The notes under the pieces were generated by a model. The model searched no databases and was not told the DNA's origin. It saw only the letters and a list, made by a program, of their open reading frames with translations. Positions 5,026 to 41,893 of a DNA stretch of 43,502 nucleotides are shown piece by piece; the stretch's first letter is position 1; every line of letters starts with the position of its first letter. Position numbers and translations under genes: made by a program. The stretch lies in the IMG/VR virus record IMGVR_UViG_3300037507_003534, positions 1 to 43,502 of that record. One strand, 5' to 3'. This stretch comes from a virus.

Positions 5026-5321
5026 AACAGCTCTTCGAGGTCCTCGATGGGGGCCTGCTGGATGATCAGTGGCGTGCCGGGGCCGAGCCAGGCGCCCTCG
5101 AGTTGGGTGGTGACGTAGTCGTGGGCAGCCTCGATGCCCAGGTCGTACCAGCGCATCACGGCTTTGATGCACGCCTCGAAGTCGTAGACGGCGACGGGGC
5201 AGGGGTCTCCGGCGCGCCGGCCCCAGCCGAGGAAGGCGGCGTCGAAGACCAGGCGGGGGTAGAGGAACAGCGGGCCGCGGATGGAGCCCGTGTCCAGGTG
5301 GAAGGTGGGATCAGAGCTCAT
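5022..5321 (-). CDS. unknown protein (99 aa) next to the sigma factor
   Basis: [20 protein letters not shown], with a conserved-looking core ([20 protein letters not shown]) and an acidic C terminus ending IEDLEELL. It overlaps the 3' end of the sigma factor gene by 11 bases, so the two are translated from one message. Not recognised; cytoplasmic by appearance. Confidence 0.65.
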
Positions 5322-6180
5322 GACCGTCGAGGCTGAGGAAGTAGCGCAGCTTGCGCAGCGCGGCTTTTTGGATTTGGCCTGCCCGGCAGCGGCTGAAGCC
5401 GAGCTCGGTGGCGATGTCTTTGAGGGTGCGGCGGTTGAAGAAGGATTCGCGGATGACCGTGGCTTCGGTGGTGGAGAGACGGGCCAGGGCGGCGGTGAGG
5501 GCTTCTTGGTTGCTGCGGAAGGTCAGGTGCTCGTCGGGCTCGGATTCGTTGGAGTCGGTGGGGGCTGAGATCAGATCGATGATTGCGGAGCCGCCCTCGG
5601 TGGAGAGGGAGTCGAGGGACGCGCAGGCGGTGATGGTGTTGGTGTGGAGGACTTGGGCGATGCGCTCGGGGGTGGTGTCGGTGAGGGTGGCGAGGTGGTC
5701 GACGCTGGGGGCGGTGCCGTGGAGGGTGAGGTGCTCAGTCGTGAGGCGTTGGATGCGGGCGAGGAGTTCGTGGGTGTTGATTGGGATGCGGATGGCGCGG
5801 GCGTGGGTGTGGATCGCGCGGTTGATGGCTTGGCGGATCCACCAGTAGGCGTAGGTGGAGACGGCGTAGCCGCGGGTCGGGTCGAAGAGCTCGAGGCCGC
5901 GGATCAGGCCGAGGTTGCCTTCTTGGATGAGGTCGGCCAGGTCGAGGCCGCGGTTTTGGTAGCGCTTGGCGATGGAGACGACCAGGCGCAGGTTGGTGCG
6001 GACCATGACCTCCATCGAGCGGCTTCCCGAGCGGCGGATGTGCAGCGGGGCGCTCTCGCGGCCGTGCTCGTGGTGGATCCAGGCGAAGATGCGCTGGCAG
6101 TGGCGGAGCTGCGCCTCTTTCGAGAGGACCGGGTGCCGGCCGATTTCGGATAGGTAGTGGTTGATTTCGGATTGGGACAT
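5311..6180 (-). CDS. RNA polymerase sigma-70 family factor
   Basis: A 289-residue sigma factor with regions in order: 1.2 (residues 3-30), region 2 (about 56-125, with the core-binding and -10 recognition stretch [18 protein letters not shown] and [14 protein letters not shown]), region 3 (about 135-210) and region 4 (about 228-285, with [23 protein letters not shown]). It binds core polymerase and should direct it to chosen promoters. The layout matches group 2/3 sigma factors of cyanobacteria rather than the short late-gene sigma factor of T4-type phages. It lacks region 1.1, as non-primary sigma factors do. All four regions look intact, so an active protein is likely. Its target promoters are unknown. 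Confidence 0.93.
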
Positions 6181-12549: not shown

Positions 12550-12626
12550 AAAAGGTGTTGAGGCAACTACGAACCTTTTTCAGAAAAGGATCAAGGTTTG
12601 ACGGTTGTCCAAATCTGGTGTACCCG
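12550..12626. promoter_or_regulatory. divergent control region with AAAAGG inverted repeats and rightward promoter
   Basis: AAAAGGT (12550-12556), ACCTTTT (12573-12579) and the hairpin CCTTTT-TCAG-AAAAGG (12574-12589) give three half sites. Rightward, TTGACG (12598-12603) is followed after 17 bases by TACCCG (12621-12626), a modest promoter for the replication operon. Leftward, TTGATC with CGTAGT at 17-base spacing is a weak candidate for the repressor gene and overlaps the repeats. The arrangement would let one protein control both directions. Confidence 0.4.
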
Positions 12627-12660
12627 ATAGCTTGGCTTGTCCTGGATGGGCGTCGCGCAT

Positions 12661-12692
12661 AAAAAAGCCCCGCACCGACTGGGGTGTGGGGC
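12661..12692 (-). terminator. strong leftward terminator upstream of the replication operon
   Basis: Read leftward, GCCCCACACC and GGTGCGGGGC form a 10-bp stem (one G-T pair) with a 6-base loop, followed by six T. On the rightward strand the same hairpin would lie in the 5' leader of the primase-helicase message and has no T run. It blocks leftward transcription from entering the repressor region. Confidence 0.75.
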
Positions 12693-12738
12693 GATGGTGG
12701 CCCTTGGAAAGGACGAGTCTCAAGCGACCCGAACCTAC

Positions 12739-15549
12739 ATGACAAGACCGAACTCGGCAAGCACGGATGCGCCAGATGGGGGCAAACGTGCAATCGATCT
12801 GCTGCGCGAAAACGCCTTCCCGGAGTGGTGGACGTTCGTGCCGGTGGCTGGAAAGGCCACCTTTGTGAAGGAGTGGAGCACCAAGCCGTTGACCCGGCAG
12901 CTCTGCATTGATGCCTACAAGACCAACCGCGCCTACGCCGGCCTCGGTGTTGTCACCGGGGAGTTCTCGGGGGGCTTGATCGCCCTGGATATTGATGGGC
13001 CGGAGGCCGATGCCCGCTATCGCGGTGCGGCGGGCGATGACTACGACGCGCTCGGTGAGGAGCGGACGATGTCGTGGACTTCGGGGCGGCCGGGCCGGAG
13101 GCAACTGCTGTATCGGGTGCCGCAGTCGATCGTGCCGGAGCTGCGGCACGTCAAGACGCTGATCCTGCGCGCAGATGGGAATTGGCACCTGGGCAACAGC
13201 GATGTGGAACGGCAAGCGGGCAAGGTCGAGGCCAGCGAGGCCCCGCACTACGAAGAGGTGGTGCTGCGCTTCAACCAGTGCCAGAGCGTGGTGCCGGGCT
13301 CGCCCCATCCGGATACGGGCAAGACCTACAGCTGGTTGAACTACAACGCGGCGCAGGTCGCGCCGGCCCCGGCATGGGTGCTCGATGTGCTCCGGGATCA
13401 CCGCAAGCCGGTGCAGTGGCTGAGCGATGCCGACCAGAAGGCCCTTGATGCCGAGCTCGGGGAGACGGCGATTCCGTCCCGGCAGATCCGGGGCTGGTTC
13501 TTCAAGGAGGAGGTTCAGCGGCTGCTGCGGCCTCGGTTGGATGAGTTGGTGTTCAACCACCCGGTGTTCGACAAGTACGGGTGGAAGGAGCGCGGGGGGA
13601 ACAAGCCTCAGATGATGTCGGGCTGCCCCTGGCACGGGGGGCAGTCGGGCACCAGCTTCCAGTACTCGGCTGAGTCGGGCTGTTGGGACTGCAAGGCGTG
13701 CGGGGTTGGTGGTGACGTCCTCGACTTCGTTCACAAGGTCACGGTCAATGACCTCTACGCCGAGCGGCCTCAGGGGCCGGACCTGGAGCGGTACGTAGCG
13801 GAGATCGCCACCAAGCTCGGGTTCAACTACCCCGAGGATGCGCGGGCCCAGATCACCAAGGAGGCCCCGCGGCTGGTGATGGATGAGCGCCAGTTCCACG
13901 AGGCGCTGATCAAGATTCACGATGAGGAGCTCAACCCGGCGATCAGGCTCGGGCGGATGGCGGGCCTGGCGGCGGAGACCGGCCGGCGGCTGACGGGCCA
14001 GCAGTGCCTGGCTGCCATGGATGAGTACCGGTACTACGAGGACAGCCGCCGCAACAACCAGAAGAAGGAGTGGTGGCAGGACGTGGAGCAGATGCAGTTC
14101 CTGGTGCCGAACCTGTTGATGCGGCCCACCCAGGTGATGCTGCACGCGGCGGGCGGTCTCGGGAAAACGTCGGCGTGCATGGGCCTGGCCAAGGTCGTCG
14201 GGCGCGGCGAAACCATGCGGATCCGCGGCATTGAGCTGCCGGTGAAGCAGGGCCCGGTGCTCTGGATTCAGAACGACCAGAACCCCGCCAAGCTGCTGCG
14301 GGACTGCGAGGACAACGGGATTAACCCCGCTCTCGACAAGTGGTTCATCGTCAAGCGCGGCTTCCAGATCAACCACACGCATGAGTTTGCGGAGTGGATC
14401 CGGGCCTACAAGCCGGCGCTGGTGGTCGTCGACTCTATTGGCTCCTGCAGCACCAAGATGCAGGTCGAGGAGAAGGACAAGGCGTTCGCCAGCCCCTTCT
14501 ATTACTACGCGGAGAAGAACGGCGATCCGGACGAATCAGGGTTCCCGGCGACCTCGATCATCTGGATTCACCACGACAACGCCAATGGCGATGCCAGGGG
14601 CACCCGCTACCTGATCGCTGCGGTGGATGAGCAGTGGCACCTGCGGACGCTCTCGGAGGATGAGCGGGAGGCGCTGCGCGAGCGGGGGCGCGTTCCGTCC
14701 AGCTGCCGGATGATCCAGATCAAGAAGTCCAGGCTCGGGCGCCAGGGTGACCTGCTGGTAGTGGAGCGGGACCACGACTTCGCTTACTCGGTGTGGGACT
14801 ACACCCCGACCGAGCGGAGGGAGGACCAGGGCCAGGGGGATCCGGAGCCGCACACCATGGCGCTGCGGATCGTGAAGGACCACGTCCTCAAGTCGCGGGG
14901 GGAAGACGGGGTCGGTCTGAAAGACCGCCTGACTGCCAAGACGGTTTGGGAGTGTCTTGTTGAGGAGATGGGTGGACAGGGGCGGCGGGCTCCATCCAGT
15001 CGGACCGTGAAGCGTTGGCTAGATCGTTGGGTGGATGACGGGGTGCTGGTGAATGGGAAGGCGCTCTCGGTTGAGGGGCAGAACAAGCCGGCTCCTTCGT
15101 ACACGCTCCCTCCCTCTCGCGCGCGTGCGTTGCCTGCTACGAAGGGACTTTTGTCAGTTCGTCCTTCAAATCCGTTGCAGGAGAACGAAAGTCAGAACGG
15201 ACAAGGGTCTGCTCCCGAGGCCGTTGTCGTTTCAACTGAGCGCGTTCAACCTGCTCAGGAACTGAACGGACAACAACCAAACCAGGATGACAATGTCCAT
15301 CCAAAATTCCCAGTCCCCGAGAGCGATCTGGGGGCAGAGCGGTCAACGGACACGCCCACACTCGGTATAAGAGGCTCCGAGGGCGCTGCTGAAACAGCTG
15401 AGGAGGCCGTCGACGCTGGGGTTGAGGCCGTGATCAGTCACCCTGAATCCGGCGATCAGCTCGTGGCGCCGCCTGTTTGGGCGCAGGAGCCCAGGCCCGA
15501 GGCCGTTGTCGACTGGGACGACCTCGACGCTGGATTTAGGGCGGGGTGA
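12739..15549 (+). CDS. primase-polymerase / zinc finger / helicase fusion protein
   Basis: A 936-residue replication protein. Residues about 20-215 form a bifunctional primase-polymerase-like domain with the metal-binding Asp84-Ile-Asp86; residues 296-321 a CHC2-type zinc finger (Cys296, His299, Cys318, Cys321); residues about 460-660 a RecA/RepA-like ATPase with Walker A GGLGKT (472-477) and Walker B ending at Asp565, then IIWIHHDNANGDARGT. A winged-helix-like part (about 730-775) and a long Pro/Glu/Asn-rich tail follow. It should prime and unwind DNA at the fork. Start chosen at ATG 12739, because the frame upstream runs through the terminator hairpin. Confidence 0.88.
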   Translation: MTRPNSASTDAPDGGKRAIDLLRENAFPEWWTFVPVAGKATFVKEWSTKPLTRQLCIDAYKTNRAYAGLGVVTGEFSGGLIALDIDGPEADARYRGAAGDDYDALGEERTMSWTSGRPGRRQLLYRVPQSIVPELRHVKTLILRADGNWHLGNSDVERQAGKVEASEAPHYEEVVLRFNQCQSVVPGSPHPDTGKTYSWLNYNAAQVAPAPAWVLDVLRDHRKPVQWLSDADQKALDAELGETAIPSRQIRGWFFKEEVQRLLRPRLDELVFNHPVFDKYGWKERGGNKPQMMSGCPWHGGQSGTSFQYSAESGCWDCKACGVGGDVLDFVHKVTVNDLYAERPQGPDLERYVAEIATKLGFNYPEDARAQITKEAPRLVMDERQFHEALIKIHDEELNPAIRLGRMAGLAAETGRRLTGQQCLAAMDEYRYYEDSRRNNQKKEWWQDVEQMQFLVPNLLMRPTQVMLHAAGGLGKTSACMGLAKVVGRGETMRIRGIELPVKQGPVLWIQNDQNPAKLLRDCEDNGINPALDKWFIVKRGFQINHTHEFAEWIRAYKPALVVVDSIGSCSTKMQVEEKDKAFASPFYYYAEKNGDPDESGFPATSIIWIHHDNANGDARGTRYLIAAVDEQWHLRTLSEDEREALRERGRVPSSCRMIQIKKSRLGRQGDLLVVERDHDFAYSVWDYTPTERREDQGQGDPEPHTMALRIVKDHVLKSRGEDGVGLKDRLTAKTVWECLVEEMGGQGRRAPSSRTVKRWLDRWVDDGVLVNGKALSVEGQNKPAPSYTLPPSRARALPATKGLLSVRPSNPLQENESQNGQGSAPEAVVVSTERVQPAQELNGQQPNQDDNVHPKFPVPESDLGAERSTDTPTLGIRGSEGAAETAEEAVDAGVEAVISHPESGDQLVAPPVWAQEPRPEAVVDWDDLDAGFRAG

Positions 15550-30991: not shown

Positions 30992-33900
30992 CTACGTACC
31001 TCGTCCGAATCCGTTCGCGGTCCATGAGAACTGACGCTGGATATTGGCACCGCTGCTGTTCTTAAAGGTCACCCTAAATCCGGTTCCGCTGACGTTGGTT
31101 AGCTCGAAGTAATCGCCGCTGGCCATGTTCATTGCGGTGATGCCTACACTCGGCAAGCTGCTGTTCACACCGCCCAGGACGCTAGTCCCCGTAAAGAATC
31201 TATTGGGGAAGGTGATGTCCGTGGCACCGGTGTTGCTCGTCAACACGCCAACGCTTTGCTCGGTGCGGCTCTGGAAGGTGGCTTCGTAACCGCACTCGTC
31301 GATCAGGATGTTTTGGTCAACGTCATTGCTCTCCAGCAAGGCACGGAACTGGAAGGCGCGCCCGCTATAGGCGCCGGCCACAAAGGGCTGCCATGCGCTC
31401 CACGAGGGGGTCGCGCTCGGGTCGTCGTCAGTCCGGCGGAGCTCCAGCGCAGCGTTGACCGCAGCAGCGATCTGCCCGTCCCAGTCGGCGTAGTCGTCCA
31501 CTTCCCCGAGGCGGGCGTCGAGCAAGTCCCCTGGGAAATACGCCCTCGTGATGAAGTAACGGCTCAGATCGAGGGCGTAGGGGGTGCCGAGATCCAGTGT
31601 GTTCGCGAAGTCGTAAATGCCTTGGGACGCAATAGGTCCGAGGACATCGACGCTTCCCACGACATCGAGGTCAGGGACCGTGTCAAACAGCACAGTGCCG
31701 TCAATGGTCAGGGCATCCCACTCGTCGCTGTAGAAGCAAGTGGTGCGTTGCCCCTGGAATGGGGGTGTATCGGCGTCTTCTCGGCGGCTTTGGATCAGCA
31801 GGTTGCCAAGCGCGTCAGGCAGATCGACGATCACGCTGGTTTCGGCTGCGCTTTGACGCCCACCGTCGTCCTCGAATTTGACGAGGATCTCGCCCTCGAC
31901 AAGGGGGACGATGGCTTCGGTCTGGTTGCCGTTCTTGGCTTCGATCAGATCAATGGAGTTGCTCCAGGTTCCGGTGCCATCGGTTCGGTTGCTATGGCGG
32001 ATGATGACTTTGCCGCCGACCCGGACATCAAGGTCGACCGTGGGCGACCAGCGCAGTCGCCCGGAGTTGGGGCTGATGGCCTCGAAGCTCAGGTTTTGGA
32101 CATTGCCGGGGACGGCTGTCTTTCCGAATGCTGTAAAGCTAAGGGCTGCCGGGGAGACGGAGGGCAGTCCACCGGCGCTAATCGAGGCGACTTGGACCTC
32201 GTAAAGACCGGGGGAGGTGTCGAGGATGTCGAAGTCCGATCGGGTTTGCTGGGTCGTTGTCCAGTTGCCGTTTTGCCGGCGCCAGCTGATTTGGTAACGC
32301 GATACTCCGAGGACGGGGGTCCAGCTCGCAATGATCTTGGATTTGACCAGACCGTTGTCCTCGTAGAGCAATTCTTCGGCCGTCAGGTTTGTCGGTGCAT
32401 CGGGGTTCGTGTTGAGATTGGTGATGTCGCGGTTTTCGAGCCGGATGTCACGCTCGACGTAGTCATATTTGCCTGCGTTGTAGGCCAGGGCTGTAATCGT
32501 GTATTTGGCTTGCTCTTGCTCTGAGACAGAGATGACCCTCCAGGTCGATGTCTGGATGTCATTGGTGCCCACGATCCAGATGCTGTTGGCGTTTGGAGCC
32601 ACGCTGAAGGGTGTAGCAGCATTGATGTAGAGCACGACGCCAACGCGGTTGGTGATATTCCTGGTCTCAACGGTGCCGTTGGGCAGGATGACCGAGAGCG
32701 TGGCGTTGCTCGTTGGCAAATTTGCGGCGTCATCCACCGTGACCGTGGTCGTGGTTGCCGTGATGATGCGTCCGCCGCGGCGCTGGACCGAGCGGACAGG
32801 GTCCATGATCTCGATGATCTGGCCGGGGCGGACCATTAAGGACTCGAGGCTGGCGGTAAAGCTCACGACCTCGGATTCGTAGCGGTCCGTGTAGAGCAGC
32901 CACTCACCCAGGCGATGGGCCTGCCCGCGAGAGGTGCAGGCGAACGCGGAGATCTCATCCTTGAGTACCCCGTACTTGCTGATGCTCTCGGCATCTTCGA
33001 CGACCTCGTAGGCCACATCGCGGCTGGTGAGATCGAGATAGCTGACGACGGCGACGTTGGGGCGTGTCTTGCGGCTGCTGCTCTGGTAGTTAAAGCCTTC
33101 TTCGGTGACGTTGGCGAGGGTGAACAGGTAGGCAGAGTCGGCGGGCTTGTCCTGCGTGATGGTCAGCGAGCCCGTGGCCCAGTAGGGCATGGCTCGGAAC
33201 ACCGAGCTCAGGTCGTTGATTAGCTTGAATGCCTCTTCCTGGGTTTGGATGTTGACGTTGCATGAGAACCGCGGCTCCTGTCCCCCGAATCCATCAGGCA
33301 CCAACGCGGAGGCGTAGACAGAAGCGGAATAGAAAGCCCACTTATCGAGTTGTTCCGCCTTGATGTGGTCGCCGAACCCGTAGCGCGAGCTCGTGAGCAG
33401 ATCCCACATGATCCAAGCCGGGTCGCTTGTCCAAGCAGCCGCGCCGAAGCTTCCGTTCCAGATACCGGAATACACCAAACGACCTGTGGCGCTGTCTACG
33501 GTGGCGTTGCTTGGGATGCGGACTTTGATGCCGCGCACAAGGTATGAGCGACTGGGAATTGAGTTGAACTGTTCGGCATCCACTCGAAGTGCGACGAGCG
33601 CACTGTTTGGGTATTTCAGCTTGGTGTAGATGATTTCGGTGTAGCTGCTCCAGTTAAAGGAGTTGGCGATTAGGCCGCTGGAGCTATCCGCTGAGGTGCG
33701 CGTGACTTTGATGTCAACTGGGAATGCGCCGTTGATGTTGACGAGGTAGCTCTTCTGGTAGGGATCGGATGAGCGACCGCTAATGGTGTCCGTAATGACC
33801 TCGGTGTAACCACCGTTGTTGTACTGGACTGAAATCGCCAGACTGAGCGAGGCACCTAGCTGGTCGCCTTTATTCGTGATCTCTTGCAGCTGGGGTACGG

Positions 33901-34747
33901 TGATTGTGATTCGTGCAGCGTTGATGTTGCTATCGGTCAGGCTCCGAACGATGGGTGTGCTCTGATTGACTGTGACGTTGACGGGTTTTTCGTCCTCGAT
34001 GTCGGCTGTAATCGGGATGTACGTCTGGTTTTGCGTGCCGGTGCGGGTCTCAATCGTGACGTTCTGAAAGTTGTAGGTGCCGTCAGCGTTCTGCAGCGGT
34101 GTGTTGTTGATAAAGATCGACTTGTGGCCGTCCTTGAGACCTTGGATCTCGCCCTCGCTGATCAGGTCAAGGACTTTGGCGTATTGCTTGGAGTCGAGGG
34201 AGTCACCGACGACTGTTGGGTTGTATTGCTGGGATCCGCCCCCGCCACCTTTACCACCACCACCGCCGCCACCACCGCCTGCACCGGTAATTGCACCGAG
34301 GCCGAGGCCGGCGTTGTGGACGCGCACGCCGCCGGCAATGAAGGTGTGGTGGCCTTCGACGGTGAGGTTGTAGACCGTGCCGCGTCCGTGCTCGGTGCGC
34401 TCAACGATGGGGCGCAGGTGGCCGTTCTCGTCGACGAGGCAGTCGTCGGGACCGAGGGTGTCGATCTCGACGAAGGCGTTGAACTGGTTGAGGACCCAGT
34501 GGTTGGGAGTGGCGTCGAGGACTGTGCCGCCCCATAGGCGGTAGCGGACGACGCGCTCGTTCTCGTGCTCGTGGACTTTGAGCACCTTGGCCTGGTGCAG
34601 CGCGCCTTGGTCGTCAAAACTCAGGACAAGGTCGCCTGGCTTGAGGGTTTCGATGGCGCGCAGCCCCTCGGGGGTTCCCACCAGGGTGTGACCCAGGAAG
34701 CATCCGCCCCCTCCGCCTCCGCCACCAGCGCCAATGATTCGGGTCAT
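30992..34747 (-). CDS. J: tail tip attachment protein, lambda gpJ-like, with embedded Hint domain
   Basis: A 1251-residue tail-tip protein that recognises the host surface and caps the tail tube. After MTRIIGAG and a run of eight Gly, a Hint domain occupies residues 16-145; a second Gly run follows and then the J-type body (DSKQYAKVLDLISEGEIQGL, AWIMWDLLTSSRYGFGDHI, MVRPGQIIEIMDPVRSVQRR). Fibronectin III-like parts follow (PDAPTNLTAEELLYEDNG, SRYQISWRRQNGNW), and a C-terminal receptor-proximal region. The start at 34747 overlaps the gpI stop by one base. Order I-J and the LISEGEIQGL signature make the family call firm; receptor specificity is unknown. Confidence 0.93.
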   Translation of the reverse strand: MTRIIGAGGGGGGGGCFLGHTLVGTPEGLRAIETLKPGDLVLSFDDQGALHQAKVLKVHEHENERVVRYRLWGGTVLDATPNHWVLNQFNAFVEIDTLGPDDCLVDENGHLRPIVERTEHGRGTVYNLTVEGHHTFIAGGVRVHNAGLGLGAITGAGGGGGGGGGKGGGGGSQQYNPTVVGDSLDSKQYAKVLDLISEGEIQGLKDGHKSIFINNTPLQNADGTYNFQNVTIETRTGTQNQTYIPITADIEDEKPVNVTVNQSTPIVRSLTDSNINAARITITVPQLQEITNKGDQLGASLSLAISVQYNNGGYTEVITDTISGRSSDPYQKSYLVNINGAFPVDIKVTRTSADSSSGLIANSFNWSSYTEIIYTKLKYPNSALVALRVDAEQFNSIPSRSYLVRGIKVRIPSNATVDSATGRLVYSGIWNGSFGAAAWTSDPAWIMWDLLTSSRYGFGDHIKAEQLDKWAFYSASVYASALVPDGFGGQEPRFSCNVNIQTQEEAFKLINDLSSVFRAMPYWATGSLTITQDKPADSAYLFTLANVTEEGFNYQSSSRKTRPNVAVVSYLDLTSRDVAYEVVEDAESISKYGVLKDEISAFACTSRGQAHRLGEWLLYTDRYESEVVSFTASLESLMVRPGQIIEIMDPVRSVQRRGGRIITATTTTVTVDDAANLPTSNATLSVILPNGTVETRNITNRVGVVLYINAATPFSVAPNANSIWIVGTNDIQTSTWRVISVSEQEQAKYTITALAYNAGKYDYVERDIRLENRDITNLNTNPDAPTNLTAEELLYEDNGLVKSKIIASWTPVLGVSRYQISWRRQNGNWTTTQQTRSDFDILDTSPGLYEVQVASISAGGLPSVSPAALSFTAFGKTAVPGNVQNLSFEAISPNSGRLRWSPTVDLDVRVGGKVIIRHSNRTDGTGTWSNSIDLIEAKNGNQTEAIVPLVEGEILVKFEDDGGRQSAAETSVIVDLPDALGNLLIQSRREDADTPPFQGQRTTCFYSDEWDALTIDGTVLFDTVPDLDVVGSVDVLGPIASQGIYDFANTLDLGTPYALDLSRYFITRAYFPGDLLDARLGEVDDYADWDGQIAAAVNAALELRRTDDDPSATPSWSAWQPFVAGAYSGRAFQFRALLESNDVDQNILIDECGYEATFQSRTEQSVGVLTSNTGATDITFPNRFFTGTSVLGGVNSSLPSVGITAMNMASGDYFELTNVSGTGFRVTFKNSSGANIQRQFSWTANGFGRGT
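34313..34702 (-). other. intein-like Hint domain inside gpJ (Cys16-Asn145)
   Basis: A 130-residue hedgehog/intein-type domain without homing endonuclease. Block A starts CFLGHTLVGTPEG (Cys16), block B has DATPNHWV (TxxH), and the end reads VYNLTVEGHHTFIAGG then VRVHN, with His144 and Asn145. The following residue is Ala146 instead of Cys, Ser or Thr. All residues needed for N-terminal thioester formation and Asn cyclisation are present, but the +1 nucleophile for normal splicing is not. Glycine runs with IIGAG and ITGAG flank it on both sides. It therefore resembles bacterial intein-like domains that cleave rather than splice. Confidence 0.88.
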
Positions 34748-35382
34748 CAGCCGGCCACCTGGATGGTGTCGATGCCCGCCGAGATCACGACCGAGCCGAC
34801 AAGGGTTTCGCCGTAAACAATCGGGACCGGGACGCCTTGGCGGCTGGTTTGTTGGACACCGCTGAAGCTGTAGGACTTGCGCGGATCGGTCTCGGAGTTC
34901 GCGCCGCTGCCGCCCATCCCAAGGCCAGTGGCGGCTTTGGGCTGAGGAGTCAGCAGCTGGACGGTGCCGGACAAAGCAAGGCCGACGCCGACGATGCCGA
35001 CCGCTGTGCTGACCGCAATCGCTCCTGCACCGACACCGAGGGTCCCAATCGCAGCGGCGCCAAAGGGATTGACGATGGCGAGCGCGATCAGCGCGACGCC
35101 TGCGATGACTTTCCACAGACCGCCACCGTCTCCACCGGCGCCTGCCAGCACCGGGATGATCTGAATGTCTTGGCTGCCGGCTGGATCGTGCAGCTCTTGT
35201 TCACCGAGGTCGTATTCACCAACGACAACGCGGTAGTGCTGGGCAGCCATGTGCTGCTCCAGGTGGGGGAAATTTGCCAGTAGAAACCGCACGGCCTCGG
35301 CAGCTGTCGTGACCTCGGCTTCAAACACGCGGCGGCGCAGGAATTTGGCGAGTTGGCCGTAAACGCGAATCTTGCGCAGCAT
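34747..35382 (-). CDS. I: tail assembly protein, lambda gpI-like
   Basis: A 211-residue protein. Residues 1-80 form a ubiquitin-like region (MLRKIRVYGQLAKFLRRRVF, AVRFLLANFPHLEQHM) and residues about 88-145 are hydrophobic and Gly/Ala-rich (VIAGVALIALAIVNPFGAAA), as in lambda gpI. The C terminus (SYSFSGVQQTSRQGVPVPIV) is typical of this family. It acts in assembly of the tail tip with gpK, gpL and gpJ. The neighbours confirm the call. Confidence 0.92.
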   Translation of the reverse strand: MLRKIRVYGQLAKFLRRRVFEAEVTTAAEAVRFLLANFPHLEQHMAAQHYRVVVGEYDLGEQELHDPAGSQDIQIIPVLAGAGGDGGGLWKVIAGVALIALAIVNPFGAAAIGTLGVGAGAIAVSTAVGIVGVGLALSGTVQLLTPQPKAATGLGMGGSGANSETDPRKSYSFSGVQQTSRQGVPVPIVYGETLVGSVVISAGIDTIQVAG

Positions 35383-35389
35383 CGCCTAC

Positions 35390-36112
35390 TTAGCCTCTGC
35401 CCATCGTAGGGAACTTGGGATGGCGCAATCTGCGGCCTGTGCATTTCTGCAGCCACCCGCCGTATAGGTCGCGGCTACTCAGCCGACCTCGGATGTGATG
35501 GAGCACAAGCTGTTCGCCGATGTACACGCCGCAGTGATTAAGCCCGTTGCCTTGAATGCTCATCAACAAACCGTCGCCAGGAAGTAAGGGTTCCTCGGGC
35601 TCGAGCTCGTGGAAACCGGCCTCGCGCCAGTAGCCATCAAAGAGTGGATCCTGCTCGAACAGCTCCGGTGTCACGGGGCGCTCCCAGTCGGGTAGTTCGA
35701 CACCTTGCTCGCCATACCAGTCACGCGCCAATGTCCAGCAATCCGTGAGGCCCCAGACCCACTCGCGGCCGATGAGGGGAGCTTTGTACCCAGTGGGCAG
35801 AAGCTTGGTGCTCCATTGCTCAGTTTTTGGGTTGACGATGTACCAGGGCAGATCCCCGCGCTCGATGGCCACGAGATCCGCTTGGCTCGGAATAGGTGGC
35901 GTCACCGGGTGGCTGTGGATGACCGCCAGGATTTCACCGGCGTCCTCGGCGGCTGTGTAGTCCGAAGGATCGAGGATGAATTGTTCGGAGCCTGCCGTGA
36001 GGTTCTTGCACGGCCAATAGCGACGGCGGCCTTTGATAACGACAAGCAGGCCGCATGCTTCGCGAGGGTCCTCCGCCTGGGCGTGTTCGAGTGCGTGGGT
36101 GCGCCAGGTCAT
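35390..36112 (-). CDS. K: tail tip peptidase, lambda gpK-like (JAMM plus NlpC/P60)
   Basis: A 240-residue two-domain hydrolase. The JAMM/MPN metal site is complete: Glu18 (REACGL), His66 and His68 (HSHP) and Asp79 ten residues later. The NlpC/P60 domain has Cys125 ([13 protein letters not shown]), His193 (LNHCGVYIG) and a His pair at 205-206. Such proteins process tail tip components or open peptidoglycan during DNA entry. The ATG overlaps the upstream gene by four bases, fixing the start; the long frame upstream is the shadow of gpL. Confidence 0.93.
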
Positions 36113-36834
36113 GCGAAGAAGGTGCCGATGCCGGGGTAGGAGCCGAAGGGCAGCTCGGCGGTGGCGCCGAAGCGGACTTTGCAGCTGCTGAGCTTTTTGC
36201 CGCAGACGTCCTGCGCGGCTGTAGTCACTCGGCTGTCGTTCTCGTTGAAGTAGTTCGTGCCGGTGTAGCCGCACTCGGTGGAGCGGTACACCCATTGGCA
36301 GATGTTGGCGATGCACTGGCGCTTGGGTGCGCGGACGCCGGCGAGATCGAAGGCCGCTGCGAGCTCGAATTCGACGAGGTCTCGGGATTCCGCTGTCTTG
36401 CGGTCGATGTAGTAGATCTCGCGGGGGAATTCTGCGGTGGGGTCCGGGGTGCCGTATGGATTGACGTTGCCTGGGAAGTTCGCGGCGTCCAGATACCGGG
36501 CCAGGGTGCGGATGCGGGTGACCTTGGCGCCCTCGAGGCCGTCGGGGAGTTGAAGCAGTACAGCCGTGATTGTGTTGAGGAGGTTGGCCACGCGAATCTT
36601 GGGGCGGGGCAACTGGCCTTTGCCTCCGGAGTACTCGAAGCCCTCGGCCTCGATGGGGAAAGCTAAGTAGGGCTGGGCGGCCCAGATCACTTCGCCGTTG
36701 GCGTTGGCGTTGGTTCCGGCGTGGAAGTAGAAGATTTGGTTCAGCCCGTGTTGCGCGGTGTTCAGTTCGAGCTGGAAGAGTTCGATGACCGCGCTCGGGG
36801 CGATTTTTTGGAGCTCGGAGACTGGGACGGTCAT
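36109..36834 (-). CDS. L: minor tail protein, lambda gpL-like
   Basis: A 241-residue tail tip hub component. The N-terminal domain ([30 protein letters not shown]) matches gpL. The C-terminal domain has Cys174, Cys179, Cys188, Cys211 and Cys218; in lambda gpL four C-terminal cysteines hold a 4Fe-4S cluster, so the same is likely here. Overlaps gpM by one base and gpK by four. Confidence 0.92.
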
Positions 36835-37181
36835 TACGGCTCGAAGACCTCACGGAAGGTGGCGGTGATTTGGTTCCAGTTGGTTCCGATGAATTCGCGG
36901 GACCAGGAGAAGCAGACGAATTTCTTTGAGCTGGCCTGGTCAGGTGGGGTCCAGTCGAAGCTGGCGGCGTCGGCGGCGCGGGCGTCCAGGAAGGCTTCGA
37001 TAGCTGTGGCGTCGGCGTCTTTGACCTTGAAGGTCAGGGCGTATTCCTTGGGGTTGTTGTGGCCGGGGAGGCCAAACACGACGCGCTGTTCGTATCCATC
37101 ACCGAAGCGGGCTTGACGGATGCGGGGTTCGCTGCGCTTGGTGGCGGTGTAGGCCGGTTTGTAGTTGGGGAAGGTAGCCAT
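36834..37181 (-). CDS. M: minor tail protein, lambda gpM-like
   Basis: A 115-residue protein of usual gpM length: [20 protein letters not shown], then [20 protein letters not shown], the hallmark of this family, and ending with a beta-rich FREVFEP. It joins the tape measure end to the tail tip. The start overlaps the tape measure stop by one base. Confidence 0.92.
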
Positions 37182-40100
37182 TACGCAAGGATGCCTCCGG
37201 GCCTCTTCTGCTTAATGAGCTCTTGTTGAACAGCTTGAGAAATGGCGCGACCGAGCTCGGCGCCTTTCGTGTTGTCCCCCTGAACTGTACTGCCGGTGGC
37301 ATCGACGTTGACCACGATGTTGGTCGCTCCGCCTGCACCGTCGCCGTGTAATTTGACGCCGAGTTCGCCACCTGCTCCGCGGCTGAGAGGAAGGATCGCT
37401 TCGGGCCCGGCCTCCCCCATCACGCCGGCGCGCATGGAGCCGCCGTCCTTGTAGCGGAACAGCGTGGGGGAATAGACAACGCTGTTGGTGAATCCCCCGC
37501 CGCGGGCGAAGGCAGCGATCCCGTTGGCGAAGCTGGCGCCCTTCGCAGCCTTCTCTGCGAAGACACCGCCGCCCTCGAAGGTGAAGCCAAAGGCGCGGAA
37601 GATGGCGAGGAGCGCCCACTTGGCGATCATGTCCATCACCATCTTCACGAACATCTGGTAGATGTTCTGGAACATGTTGGCGAAGGCGTCTTGGACGGAG
37701 GCTGTGCCGTCGACAATGGCAAAGACCGCGTTGGACATCGCGGTGCCGAGCTCGCTTTGGATGGTCTCGGCGAACTTGGAGACTTCTTCGTCCATGCTCT
37801 GGAGATCGTCGTTCCAATCGCGGAGGACGTCTTTGAGGTTGCGACGGTCTTTGGGCTCGGCGGGCTGGTTGTCCACGGTGCCCTTGGCTTTGTCCGCGTC
37901 TCCTTGGAGCTGGGCGATGATCGCTTGAAGCCGAGCGATCTCGGCATTGGCAGCGTCGAGTTGTCTCTTCAGCTCGGCGGCTTCCTTGGGTGAGGCGTTG
38001 GCAATCTGAGCCGCGATGCGAGTGCGCAGCTCTTCTTGGGTTTTGAGGGAGGCGTTGAGGTCCTTGAGGGCGGCGTCGAGCCGTTGCTGGATTTCGAGCT
38101 TGCGCAGTTCCTTCTCGATTTGCTCGGGGGAGGCGCCGGCCTCGAGGAGCTTCTTGCGCAGCGCGAGGACTTCGTTCTGCCGGGTGATTTGCTGGACCTG
38201 CTGCTGGAACTCACGGGAGAGGTCGACGCCCTGTTGGATGGCGTTTAGGCGGAGGCGGACTTGGGCCTCGTCTTTGAGGCTGCGGACGAAGGCGCCGTGG
38301 CGGGCTGTGACCTGTTGGATCAGGGTGTCTTTCTCGCGCTCGCTGAGGTTGGTGCGGGCGTTGATGCCCTCGATGATTTGACCGAGCTCGCGTTGTGCGC
38401 TGGCGACACGGGCGGCGCCCTCGGCTGCGATTTGGGTGCGCTCGGGGTTGAAGGCGTCGTAGGTGTTCTGGGCGAGGGCGGTTGTGATGCCGTCGAGCTC
38501 GTAGAGCTTGTCCTGGTACTGCTCCAGGCCCACGGGCTCAAAGGCGGATTTGGCGATGGCGTCGAAAGCTTCCTTGGTCTTGGCCTGGGTGAGCGCGGCC
38601 TGGATCGCCGCGAGGCGCCCCATCGCAGAGGTCAGGGAGCGGATTGCGGCCTCGTACTTGGCGACGGCAGGGGCGCCGACGTCGGCGAAAGACGGTGCCT
38701 GGGGTGCGGCGCCCGTGCTGCCAGGCCCTTTGTATGCCGAGCCGGGATCGGCCAGGTGCATGACCTTGTAGCTCTGGCCTCGGGGGCCGGCGATGGTGGC
38801 GTAGTTGCCGCCAAGGCCCCTGGGATCGCGGGTGAAGTTCTGGAGGGTGTAGCCCGGGGCCAGGTTGAGGGGAGTTCCGACCGGTCCGGCTAAGTCGTAG
38901 CCGGCATGACGACGGCCACCAGAGCGCGCGGACCCGGGGACATCGGTGAGTTGAAGCTGTCTGTTGATATTCGCTGCGAAAATGGCGCGGGCTTCGGCTT
39001 CGCTGCCAGCGCCGGAGATGTGGAAGTGATCTCCTCGGCTGCTAGTGCCGGTGTTGCCTTGGGTAAGGCCGGTGACGCCGCCGACCGGGGTCTGGCCGGC
39101 CAGTTGCCGGCGGTAGTCCGACACCTTTTGTTCGTACTCGCCGGCGCGCTTGCGGATCTCGGCGATTTTCTTTTCGTTCTCGAGGCGGTAGTCGGAGATC
39201 TGGCGTTCGAGGTTGGCGGCCTCGATCACCAGCTGCTTTTTGCCAGCTTCGATGTCGAGTTCCCCGCGCTCGCGAGTCGATAGGTAGTTGTTTAGCGCTT
39301 CGAGCGCGGAGCGTGAAGCGCCTTCCTCGCCCTCGATGAGCTTTTTGTTGGCCTGCTCCATCTGGTAGATGCGCAGTTCGCCGGCGGCACGGAAGATATC
39401 GACTTCTTTTTGGGCTAGTTCTTGACGTTTCTGGAAGAGTTCGTTCTCTTGTTGAATGCGTATATCATTGATTTCCTTCTCCAGTGAAGTTCTTTTATCG
39501 GCTTGGAGTCTTATGTTTTCTTCTGCGTCTTTTTTGTTTTGTGCGGCTTCGTACTTCCTTTGGTACTCGCGCAACCGAGCTTGCTCGCCAATCAGCGCAC
39601 CTACTCGCTGCTGCTCGGCATTGCCGCCTAATGCCCTGGTGACTGTGTCGCGTACATCAAAGAGTCTCCAAAATTCGCTCCAGGTCTGGATGCCGAGTTG
39701 GCCTTCGTAGCGCAGATCATTCAGCTTCTTCCTGATTTCTTCAATGCGTTCGGTGGCCCGGCCGTACTCGGCCTGGGCTAGCTGCCGTTCAAAGTCCCGA
39801 GCGGCCTTAGTGGCGTAGTCTGCGTCGTCCCCGACGTTTCTATATACGGTTCCAAGTCGTTCTAAAGCGAGCTCGGCGCGGTTCGTTTTAGCGGTTTCCT
39901 CGGCTCTCTTTTGGTATTCGCCGAAGGCATTTACAAGCACCGTTATTGCTGCTTGTACCAGGAATATCATCCCTACTGACTTGACCATGTTCATTGCGGT
40001 CAAGCGCACAGTTTCACCGAGATTTTTGAATCCTCCTGCAACAGTTTCAATCCGGCCGCCGGTGCTGACCGCGTCATTGCCTGCTTTGATCAGATTATTG

Positions 40101-41893
40101 GAGACTTCTTGCAGGGCTTTGGCGACACCTGCTGCCATCGTGGGCAGTGTGACTAGCGATGCCGCAAGTGTCCCAAACACGATCGCAAGTTTGCCCACCG
40201 CGGCTATTAGGACAGCGATGCCACCAAGCAGCGTTGCGATTGCTACTCCTACTCCGCCGAGTGCCGGAACTACAACTCTTACTAGCGTGTTGCCAATGAT
40301 TAGGGCATTGGTAATGAAGTCCATGCCTGCCCTTTTGAGCAGGCCCATGGTGGCAGCTAGTTTCGTAAACTCCTGAACTATGGGTAAGTCAAGAAGTTGA
40401 CTGTAAAGATTAAAGCCCGTGGCGAGTAGTTCGATGAATTTGCTGTAGAAGCTGATGACGTTTGCCAAGGCGCGCGCCAGCGTTTCAAATACATCAACCT
40501 TGATTTCTATGAATGATTTGCCCAGTCGGACAAAGGCATCTGCAACGGTCAGTACCGCAGGCTGCAACGTGGTAATGATTTGAGCTACAGCGCCAATGGC
40601 GCGCTGCATTCCAGATTCGATCAGGACGACGACGTCTTGGATAGCGTCCTTCAGATCATTTATGGCCTTGCTACCTGAGTTGTCCTTTAAACCGATCTCT
40701 CCCAATGAGATCAACCCGCTGCGCTCTCGGATCACCTGGCCGATTGCTGCAAACCTGCCAATGAATTGACCAGCAGCGTCGGCAAGGGAGAACAGCTGCT
40801 CTCTGATCCTGAACAACCTCTCAAAAATCCCGGCCAGAGCGTTCAGTAGCGGATCCAACAGCCCGGCGCCGAACCGTTGGGCCACCAGCTCACCGAGATC
40901 GCGGATGTTGGAGACGACGCCTGAAAAGCCCTGCGCCGCAATCCGTTGGCCGGCGACGGAAGCAGCTAGCCGGTCCTCGAGAAACTTGATGACGCCGCCA
41001 GCTTGTGTTTTGGCTCGGGCCACGTCCTCGTTGGTGATTCCGAGTGCCTTGGCCAGGTACGAATCCATGGTGATGTCACCACGGAGGATCGAGCCGATTT
41101 CTTGGCGTGCCTGGTACAGGGGGATGCCGAAGGTCCCGAGGGCGGCGGAGAAGTTGATCGCCAGGTCTTCGGCTTCCTTAAGGCCGCCGCCGATCTGACC
41201 GACTTGCGAGGCAACGATGCCGAAGACTTCGATGACCTCGTTGGAGGTGACGCCGGCCAGAGCAATAGACCGCTCTCGGATGCTGTCGATCCGCTTTTGG
41301 ACCTCGCCGGTCAGGCTGACGATCTTCTCGTAGGGGTCAGTGATCTCTTTCCCGTTACGGAAGACCTTGTTGGTGGAGGCGAGGGTGGTCTGGGTCTTGA
41401 GAATCGTCTCGCGGAGCTTGATCTCGCGGCCGATCGTCTGCTGGAAAAATCCGCCAAAAGCGTTCTGCAAGACACCAAGTATCTCTTTGATGCCGAACAA
41501 GGCAAAGCCAACTTTGGCTAAGCCATTCACTAAGCCACCTACAGAGCTGCTGGCTTTGTTAAAACTGTTAGCTAAAATGTCACCAGCTTTTGTGTTGTTG
41601 GCGAGGGTTGTCGCTGCTTTGGCTGTTCCTGTTATGGCGCCTTCATACCTTTTAATGCTGTCACCCACGCCGGGCAGCTGCTTTGCGACTTTGTAGAAGG
41701 TCTTGATATTGTTTGCCGCATCGTTTACGTCCCTCCCCAGGTTTGAGAACGTCTTGTTGACGTCTCTAATCGATGGGAGGTCGATTTTTAGCTGACGGGC
41801 CCTGGTCGCGCTGTCGGCCGTCTGATTCAGCTGGCGCAGATCGCGTTCAGCTCGCTGCGTATCGGCAGTGACGTTGAGCCGAAAATCAGCCAC
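37181..41893 (-). CDS. H: tape measure protein with embedded M23-like peptidase motifs
   Basis: A 1570-residue protein setting tail length; at about 0.15 nm per residue the tail would be near 235 nm. The N-terminal part is coiled coil and Asn/Lys-rich; residues about 530-600 hold hydrophobic segments (VVVPALGGVGVAIATLLGGI); residues 780-950 and 1080-1400 are long Glu/Lys/Gln coiled coils; the C terminus (PTLFRYKDGGSMRAGVMGEA, GPEAILPLSR) is the family's usual end. Residues about 945-1050 carry M23-type zinc peptidase motifs in permuted order: GDHFHIS (His956, His958), then HAGYD (His996, Asp1000), then VMHL (His1046). Part of the middle (39400-40600) is AT-rich. Confidence 0.93.
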   Translation of the reverse strand: MADFRLNVTADTQRAERDLRQLNQTADSATRARQLKIDLPSIRDVNKTFSNLGRDVNDAANNIKTFYKVAKQLPGVGDSIKRYEGAITGTAKAATTLANNTKAGDILANSFNKASSSVGGLVNGLAKVGFALFGIKEILGVLQNAFGGFFQQTIGREIKLRETILKTQTTLASTNKVFRNGKEITDPYEKIVSLTGEVQKRIDSIRERSIALAGVTSNEVIEVFGIVASQVGQIGGGLKEAEDLAINFSAALGTFGIPLYQARQEIGSILRGDITMDSYLAKALGITNEDVARAKTQAGGVIKFLEDRLAASVAGQRIAAQGFSGVVSNIRDLGELVAQRFGAGLLDPLLNALAGIFERLFRIREQLFSLADAAGQFIGRFAAIGQVIRERSGLISLGEIGLKDNSGSKAINDLKDAIQDVVVLIESGMQRAIGAVAQIITTLQPAVLTVADAFVRLGKSFIEIKVDVFETLARALANVISFYSKFIELLATGFNLYSQLLDLPIVQEFTKLAATMGLLKRAGMDFITNALIIGNTLVRVVVPALGGVGVAIATLLGGIAVLIAAVGKLAIVFGTLAASLVTLPTMAAGVAKALQEVSNNLIKAGNDAVSTGGRIETVAGGFKNLGETVRLTAMNMVKSVGMIFLVQAAITVLVNAFGEYQKRAEETAKTNRAELALERLGTVYRNVGDDADYATKAARDFERQLAQAEYGRATERIEEIRKKLNDLRYEGQLGIQTWSEFWRLFDVRDTVTRALGGNAEQQRVGALIGEQARLREYQRKYEAAQNKKDAEENIRLQADKRTSLEKEINDIRIQQENELFQKRQELAQKEVDIFRAAGELRIYQMEQANKKLIEGEEGASRSALEALNNYLSTRERGELDIEAGKKQLVIEAANLERQISDYRLENEKKIAEIRKRAGEYEQKVSDYRRQLAGQTPVGGVTGLTQGNTGTSSRGDHFHISGAGSEAEARAIFAANINRQLQLTDVPGSARSGGRRHAGYDLAGPVGTPLNLAPGYTLQNFTRDPRGLGGNYATIAGPRGQSYKVMHLADPGSAYKGPGSTGAAPQAPSFADVGAPAVAKYEAAIRSLTSAMGRLAAIQAALTQAKTKEAFDAIAKSAFEPVGLEQYQDKLYELDGITTALAQNTYDAFNPERTQIAAEGAARVASAQRELGQIIEGINARTNLSEREKDTLIQQVTARHGAFVRSLKDEAQVRLRLNAIQQGVDLSREFQQQVQQITRQNEVLALRKKLLEAGASPEQIEKELRKLEIQQRLDAALKDLNASLKTQEELRTRIAAQIANASPKEAAELKRQLDAANAEIARLQAIIAQLQGDADKAKGTVDNQPAEPKDRRNLKDVLRDWNDDLQSMDEEVSKFAETIQSELGTAMSNAVFAIVDGTASVQDAFANMFQNIYQMFVKMVMDMIAKWALLAIFRAFGFTFEGGGVFAEKAAKGASFANGIAAFARGGGFTNSVVYSPTLFRYKDGGSMRAGVMGEAGPEAILPLSRGAGGELGVKLHGDGAGGATNIVVNVDATGSTVQGDNTKGAELGRAISQAVQQELIKQKRPGGILA

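Follow-up and report, generated by a model that had tools for sequence, protein, structure and literature searches.

An intein-like Hint domain at a fixed site near the start of the phage tail-tip protein gpJ probably removes itself from its host protein

The window analysed here is the whole of a 43,502-base virus record (IMG/VR IMGVR_UViG_3300037507_003534, positions 1 to 43,502). Its minus strand carries a lambda-like tail module, in which the gene for the tail-tip protein gpJ lies directly downstream of the gene for gpI. The ATG of gpJ (34745-34747) overlaps the stop codon of gpI in the sequence TGATG. The gpJ body begins at about residue 168 and from there on is an ordinary gpJ, which matched the PHROG family of the central tail fibre J (PHROG_31) with E 4e-250 and the NCBIfam model lambda_TipJ with E 6.5e-131. 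In front of the body, a Hint domain is set between glycine-rich stretches. The features are listed below.

37181-41893, minus strand: tape measure gene, assigned by position and weak models
36834-37181, minus strand: gpM, with family support
36109-36834, minus strand: gpL, with family support
Stretch between gpL and gpI, minus strand: gpK, read from the translation alone
34747-35382, minus strand: gpI, tail-tip plug/assembly protein (PHROG_32, E 6e-46; weak match to Pfam Lambda_tail_I)
30992-34747, minus strand: gpJ, 1251 residues, with a clear PHROG match
34703-34747, minus strand: gpJ residues 1-15, leader or N-extein MTRIIGAG-Gly8, resembling the N terminus of Hint-free J relatives
34313-34702, minus strand: Hint domain, gpJ residues 16-145, from profile, PDB-profile, AlphaFold and Foldseek matches
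34700-34702, minus strand: codon of Cys16, the Cys1 of the Hint and residue of the N-S acyl shift, invariant in the family
34499-34510, minus strand: block B, TPNH, residues 80-83 (T80, H83), with TxxH invariant in the family
34313-34372, minus strand: blocks F and G, YNLTVEGHHTFIAGGVRVHN, residues 126-145, ending in His-Asn (Ser-Asn in one family member)
34313-34315, minus strand: codon of Asn145, the last residue of the Hint
34310-34312, minus strand: Ala146, the +1 residue, not a nucleophile
34235-34312, minus strand: residues 146-171, spacer AGLGLG and second motif copy AITGAG-Gly9-K-Gly5
30992-34234, minus strand: gpJ body, residues 172-1251 and stop, with hub, FNIII-A and fibre regions (PHROG_31, lambda_TipJ, Pfam FNIII-A_GpJ and Phage-tail_3)

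Behind its N-terminal, lambda gpI-like part, the gpI of the window carries PVLAGAGGDGGG, which resembles the N-terminal motif of J; the JAB peptidase of gpK has been predicted to cut gpI at such a glycine (Iyer et al., PMC1779556). Elsewhere on the minus strand lie a 600-residue open reading frame (12583-14382) with no match among PHROG families or INPHARED proteins and a sigma-factor homologue (5314-6180; phrog_351, E 1e-58).

The domain at residues 16 to 145 was compared with profiles and structures. Pfam PT-HINT (PF07591) was the best Pfam family, with E 6e-10 and over its cut-off, and NCBIfam intein_Cterm was over its cut-off as well. When a profile of 42 sequences was searched against PDB profiles, the best match was the BIL 2lwy of C. 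thermocellum (E 1.4e-12). The core of the AlphaFold model had a pLDDT of about 96, and Foldseek matched the model to BIL2 of T. thermophila BUBL1 (E 3e-11) and to 2lwy (E 2.8e-10), with a probability of 1.00 against inteins, BILs and hedgehog. The domain has the Hint fold and blocks A, B, F and G with Cys1 and TxxH; further block residues in the window are Y126-N-L, H134 and H144-N145. No homing endonuclease is found inside the Hint, which is 129 to 135 residues long. The Hint assignment is far above chance level. The sequence-only reading had placed the domain and its Cys16, TPNH, His144-Asn145 and Ala146 correctly to the base, and the Hint or BIL identity that it had proposed was confirmed by these comparisons.

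Relatives were collected from IMG/VR. Pattern scans with the window Hint gave 455, 525 and at least 542 confirmed relatives in overlapping sets. A scan with the J body only found J proteins with and without a Hint, and a scan with the J of the member L268 found a second J family, again with both kinds of members. The combined set holds 148 distinct Hints at the J site, with the J body downstream in 146 and contig ends cutting off the other two, and the earlier belief that related domains occur in other phage J proteins proved right. One exact site of tail-tip J is occupied by a Hint in hundreds of uncultured phages. A recent one-off insertion was ruled out, as Hints of down to 27% identity share the site, and an out-of-frame or sequencing artefact was ruled out by the 148 distinct open copies. 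IMG/VR contigs may contain assembly errors. In one member (L184, IMG/VR 3300045125_000022), a leader RRWWWWRG precedes Cys1 out of frame, owing to a frameshift or an assembly error.

A search of 50,697 cultured-phage records (INPHARED, tblastn with Hints of several clades) yielded no close relative of the J Hint. The matches there were distant Hints in helicases, terminases, a thymidylate synthase and hypothetical proteins, none of them in an annotated tail protein. The Ruminococcus phages NatCom PV036417, PV036440 and PV036441 (L363), which are gut phages, have as many as three Hint-like places in a genome, in genes annotated only as hypothetical. Plasmids gave distant Hint proteins only. Representative cellular genomes gave one prophage-like J in Oxalobacter and, in a cyanobacterial MAG, a single phage-like contig, and these are the only host hints for the phages concerned; matches were present in one of 399 genomes of the Oxalobacter order and in three of 292 genomes of the phylum of the MAG, two of these three being non-J. 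In the open literature searched, which covers part of the literature, no account of a gpJ carrying a Hint came up.

Residue conservation was analysed across the 148 Hints, whose lowest pairwise identity is 27%. Cys1 was present in all of them and His-Asn in 147, the exception being Ser-Asn at the Hint C terminus of L301 (IMG/VR 3300020436_000012). TxxH was also found in 148 of 148, some of the scans having used TPNHW-type patterns, which favour it by design. Only 12 of the 134 columns hold one residue in at least 99% of the members, and all five catalytic columns are among them. The 34 members of the seamless type described below were found almost wholly via patterns outside the Hint. Because the same invariance was seen in these members (Cys1 and TxxH 34/34, His-Asn 33/34), the J Hint is under strong selection for keeping its chemistry. 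The sequence-only reading had named one finding that would count against it, close relatives that keep the fold but have lost the catalytic residues. No such loss was found, and its proposal that a thioester could form and Asn could cyclise is supported. In some seamless members another residue stands in place of the block F His.

The +1 residue was Ala in 93 Hints, Lys in 29, Gly in 25 and Thr in one (L224, IMG/VR 3300020045_002196, the sole member with a possible +1 nucleophile), and never Cys or Ser. It changes at least four times on the Hint tree, and in 146 of the 148 its codon is one substitution away from Cys, Ser or Thr. Gly occupies -1 in 146 Hints and +2 in all 148, where it holds although the rest of the spacer varies. 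Splicing had earlier been described as disabled at one position in the window. The non-nucleophilic +1 residue is instead a trait of the whole family (147/148), and type A BILs lacking this nucleophile have been reported to splice, although they mostly cleave (PMC4031507; PMC7664689).

The Hints occur in two arrangements. In the duplicated type, with 114 members including the window, a leader I-x-G-[AS]-G-run is followed by the Hint, an A/G-G-spacer and a second I-x-G-[AS]-G-run-K-Gly. In the window these flanks read M1-TRIIGAG-Gly8 before the Hint and AGLGLG-AITGAG-Gly9-KGGGGG after it, and Hint-free relatives of this type have the motif once, as in MTALIAGAGGGGGGKGGGG. In the 34 seamless members the Hint lies within a single motif, without a second copy. 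Examples of filled sites are VPFISGGKGG and KGGGKSAAP around a Hint running from Cys to His-Asn, VPYIVGAKGG and KGGGKGGG, and VPLIEGGGGGGG and GGGGGKK; the empty counterparts of the first two are IPQISGAKGGKGGGGG and VPRITGAGGGGKGGGG, and Hint-free sequences related to the seamless sites are IPQISGAKGGKGGGGGS, VPRITGAGGGGKGGGGGG and IPIIVGGKGGKGGS. Within one J family, GGKGG-Hint-KGGG stands against the empty GAKGGKGGGG. When Cys1 to Asn is removed from a seamless member and the flanks are joined, the empty sequence type is restored, as with an intein. The repeated flanks noticed in the window were confirmed and recur throughout the duplicated type. A recent tandem duplication behind the matching flanks is unlikely in view of the synonymous differences between the copies. 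On the Hint tree, which is unrooted, the duplicated type forms one clade (SH-aLRT 96) with seamless Hints of the L264/L268 type among its neighbours, and so it probably arose once from the seamless form.

Presence of the Hint was then followed on a tree of 75 J bodies. It changes at least nine times, three of these changes being forced by starred branches, and none of 500 shuffles gave a number as low. The closest filled and empty pair, L110 (with Hint) and L111 (Hint-free), has J proteins that are 88% identical. Their DNA is about 100% identical across the 3' portion of gpI and on through the leader of J until the codon before Cys1 and only 72% identical past the Hint, which places a crossover in the Gly codons bordering the Hint. 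Hint and body mostly show similar synonymous divergence, so that a Hint is usually inherited together with its J. Among the exceptions, the pair L052 and L074, with a pS of 0.07 in the Hint and 0.53 in the J body, shows that the Hint module has been exchanged between phages.

The fate of the segment in front of the Hint bears directly on the outcome of the reaction. In the seamless type this segment has 20 to 26 residues and resembles Hint-free J (for example RRYVNYQGYQVPHIYG versus KTYVNYNGQLVPRITG). Its pN/pS is 0.31, close to that of the Hint (0.27) and of the body (0.26). An overlap with gpI as the source of this constraint was ruled out, since gpI stops at most a few bases into J. When a seamless member was modelled with its body by AlphaFold, the Hint and one further domain were modelled well and the N-terminal segment had low confidence. 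In the duplicated type, rare motif variants stand on both sides of the same Hint, namely IQGASTGGG in L054 and GSKG in L209, L214 and L256. Leader and second copy matched in 33 of 50 cases against 22.9 in shuffles (p 0.0006, a statistic that ignores relatedness). Because the rare variants match across the Hint although their two copies differ at synonymous sites, the leader seems to be selected at the protein level in this type too. Taken together, these results argue that the N-terminal part of J is kept and not thrown away. The sequence-only reading had suggested that self-cleavage could release the leader, and the purifying selection on the segment in seamless relatives speaks against its being discarded. 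Ligation would be the simplest way of keeping the segment; a nicked J whose parts stay associated, or an uncut J, would also fit.

We regard self-removal of the Hint from gpJ, by an unusual route, as probable, because the catalytic residues are essentially never lost and the usual splicing residue is almost never present. In the proposed route, which follows established Hint chemistry, the acyl group of Gly15 would be taken over by Cys16 as a thioester, helped by Thr80 and His83. Asn145 would then cyclise with the help of His144 and free the amine of Ala146. This unhindered amine could attack the unhindered Gly thioester and rejoin J without a +1 nucleophile, in competition with hydrolysis of the thioester, which would give a nicked J. 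The Gly at -1 and the Ala, Gly or Lys followed by Gly at +1/+2 would suit such an aminolysis, even in variable spacers (AGLGLG, GGHRERYP). Given self-removal, ligation has slightly better than an even chance of being the main productive outcome. As a whole, we somewhat favour a mini-Hint that is active, resembles inteins and type A BILs, and cuts itself out of new gpJ, with the parts probably rejoined at least in part. A large natural phage-intein lineage that normally splices with no +1 nucleophile at this one tail-tip-hub site, by direct aminolysis of the Gly thioester through the Ala, Gly or Lys-Gly amine, is a tentative extension which we hold to be somewhat below an even chance. The junction peptides computed for the window are IIGAGGGGGGGGAGLGLGAITGAGGGGGGGGGK when joined (M 2351.194), AGLGLGAITGAGGGGGGGGGK when C-cleaved (M 1540.796) and IIGAGGGGGGGGCFLGHTLVGTPEGLR when uncut (M 2409.222). 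The predicted masses are 135 kDa for full-length gpJ with its Hint, 119.6 kDa for a J starting at AGLG and 14.5 kDa for the Hint.

The main competitor is a pro-domain that only cleaves: the Hint would cut one or both junctions, the leader would be lost and J would start at Ala146 without ligation. We consider this rather unlikely, although several observations suit it. A plain intein under selection for splicing should favour a +1 nucleophile, yet Cys and Ser never occur and 147 of 148 members have none, and the function selected may be cleavage. Cleavage predominates in the type A BILs that have been characterised (PMC4031507; PMC7664689); reviews differ on splicing, one of them holding that these domains cleave and cannot ligate (PMC7765530). 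In the window type, moreover, ligation would place two copies of the motif side by side, whereas C-terminal cleavage alone would give J a near-native N terminus, AGLGLG-IxGAGGGGKGGGG, resembling the Hint-free start MTALIAGAGGGGGGKGGGG. What speaks for keeping the leader is the seamless type, with its single motif copy and an N-terminal segment common to Hint-free J and under purifying selection, together with the covariation of the leader motif with the second copy in the duplicated type despite their synonymous differences. An uncleaved Hint that stays in J as a structural or binding module would explain why the non-catalytic stretches NHWVLNQ and HLRPI are strongly conserved in the duplicated type, but the catalytic residues are near-invariant at identities down to 27% and Hint-free J with an 88% identical body exist; we judge this reading improbable. 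Less probable still is a Hedgehog- or BUBL-like acyl transfer, in which a different tail protein, for example gpI or another copy of gpJ, would accept the N-terminal J peptide from its Gly thioester on an amine, giving a covalent cross-link in the tail tip. The predicted thioester chemistry, the almost invariant -1 Gly, the top structural matches to the BUBL-locus BIL2 and other BILs, and the neighbourhood of gpI, whose lambda form has a ubiquitin-like domain with a glycine end (PMC1779556), would all agree with it. The conserved His-Asn and +2 Gly would be superfluous for transfer alone, no acceptor was identified, and Hint-free relatives manage without the domain.

The Hint sits in a flexible Gly linker that joins the first strand or motif of J to its hub, where the protein would tolerate insertion of the domain, its clean loss and ligation that is imperfect. 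The J Hint thus behaves like an intein that is selfish or of conditional use, and not like an essential switch. An essential switch at adsorption is unlikely because close J proteins manage without the Hint; the adsorption switch suggested earlier has no support, given the Hint-free J of up to 88% identity and the repeated presence changes on the J tree. The site, at the start of gpJ and beside the gpI gene, is relevant to tail assembly: in lambda structures gpI plugs the tail-tip lumen, touches gpJ and pairs with its hub domains, and gpI and the J N-terminal region together are the equivalent of T5 pb3 (PMC10721106). There may be little room for three added domains of 14.5 kDa at the J N termini.

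The most familiar inteins sit in nucleic-acid enzymes, and the most familiar BILs in variable proteins of bacteria. The J Hint shares fold and blocks A, B, F and G with the class 1 mini-inteins (Mtu RecA, Ssp/Npu DnaB, gp41-1), and like them it has an N-terminal Cys, TxxH, a terminal Asn, no endonuclease and a fixed site in a conserved protein, with sporadic presence and uninterrupted alleles in close relatives. Class 1 inteins have Cys, Ser or Thr at +1, found here in one of 148 (the Thr of L224), and their host is a nucleic-acid enzyme and not a tail structural protein. A class 3 intein (WCT, no Cys1) is ruled out by the Cys1 of the J Hint. In pretoxin PT-HINT proteins (PF07591) the Hint precedes a C-terminal toxin domain, whereas in gpJ the tail hub and fibre follow. 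The Hedgehog Hog domain, a C-terminal Hint followed by a sterol-recognition region, differs from the N-terminal J Hint with the J hub behind it. The ciliate BUBL BILs (6y75, 6tmm) gave the top Foldseek matches and belong to another protein and another domain of life; acyl transfer as in BUBL is not indicated beyond the common chemistry. Lambda gpJ is a clear homologue of the window J body and, like other Hint-free J, lacks the domain.

The closest parallel is the type A BIL (Amitai 2003; Dassa 2004; 2lwy of C. thermocellum), which has the size, fold, N-terminal Cys, TxxH and His-Asn of the J Hint and likewise no +1 nucleophile; 2lwy was the closest PDB profile match and among the closest folds. 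Type A BILs form the N-terminal thioester and cyclise Asn, and when they splice, the freed amine attacks the thioester, cleavage being dominant (PMC4031507; PMC7664689). BILs have been described from bacterial proteins that are not conserved, where they lie in hypervariable regions (PMC7765530), whereas the J Hint always occupies the same site of a tail-tip protein that is conserved among phages, with the J body in 146 of 148, and has empty alleles. In the J Hints, nature offers a test of whether splicing that lacks a +1 nucleophile is real and has been selected for, and they are possibly a source of nucleophile-free ligation domains. In conclusion, the J Hint would work like a type A BIL and is best filed as a new variant between BIL and class 1 intein.
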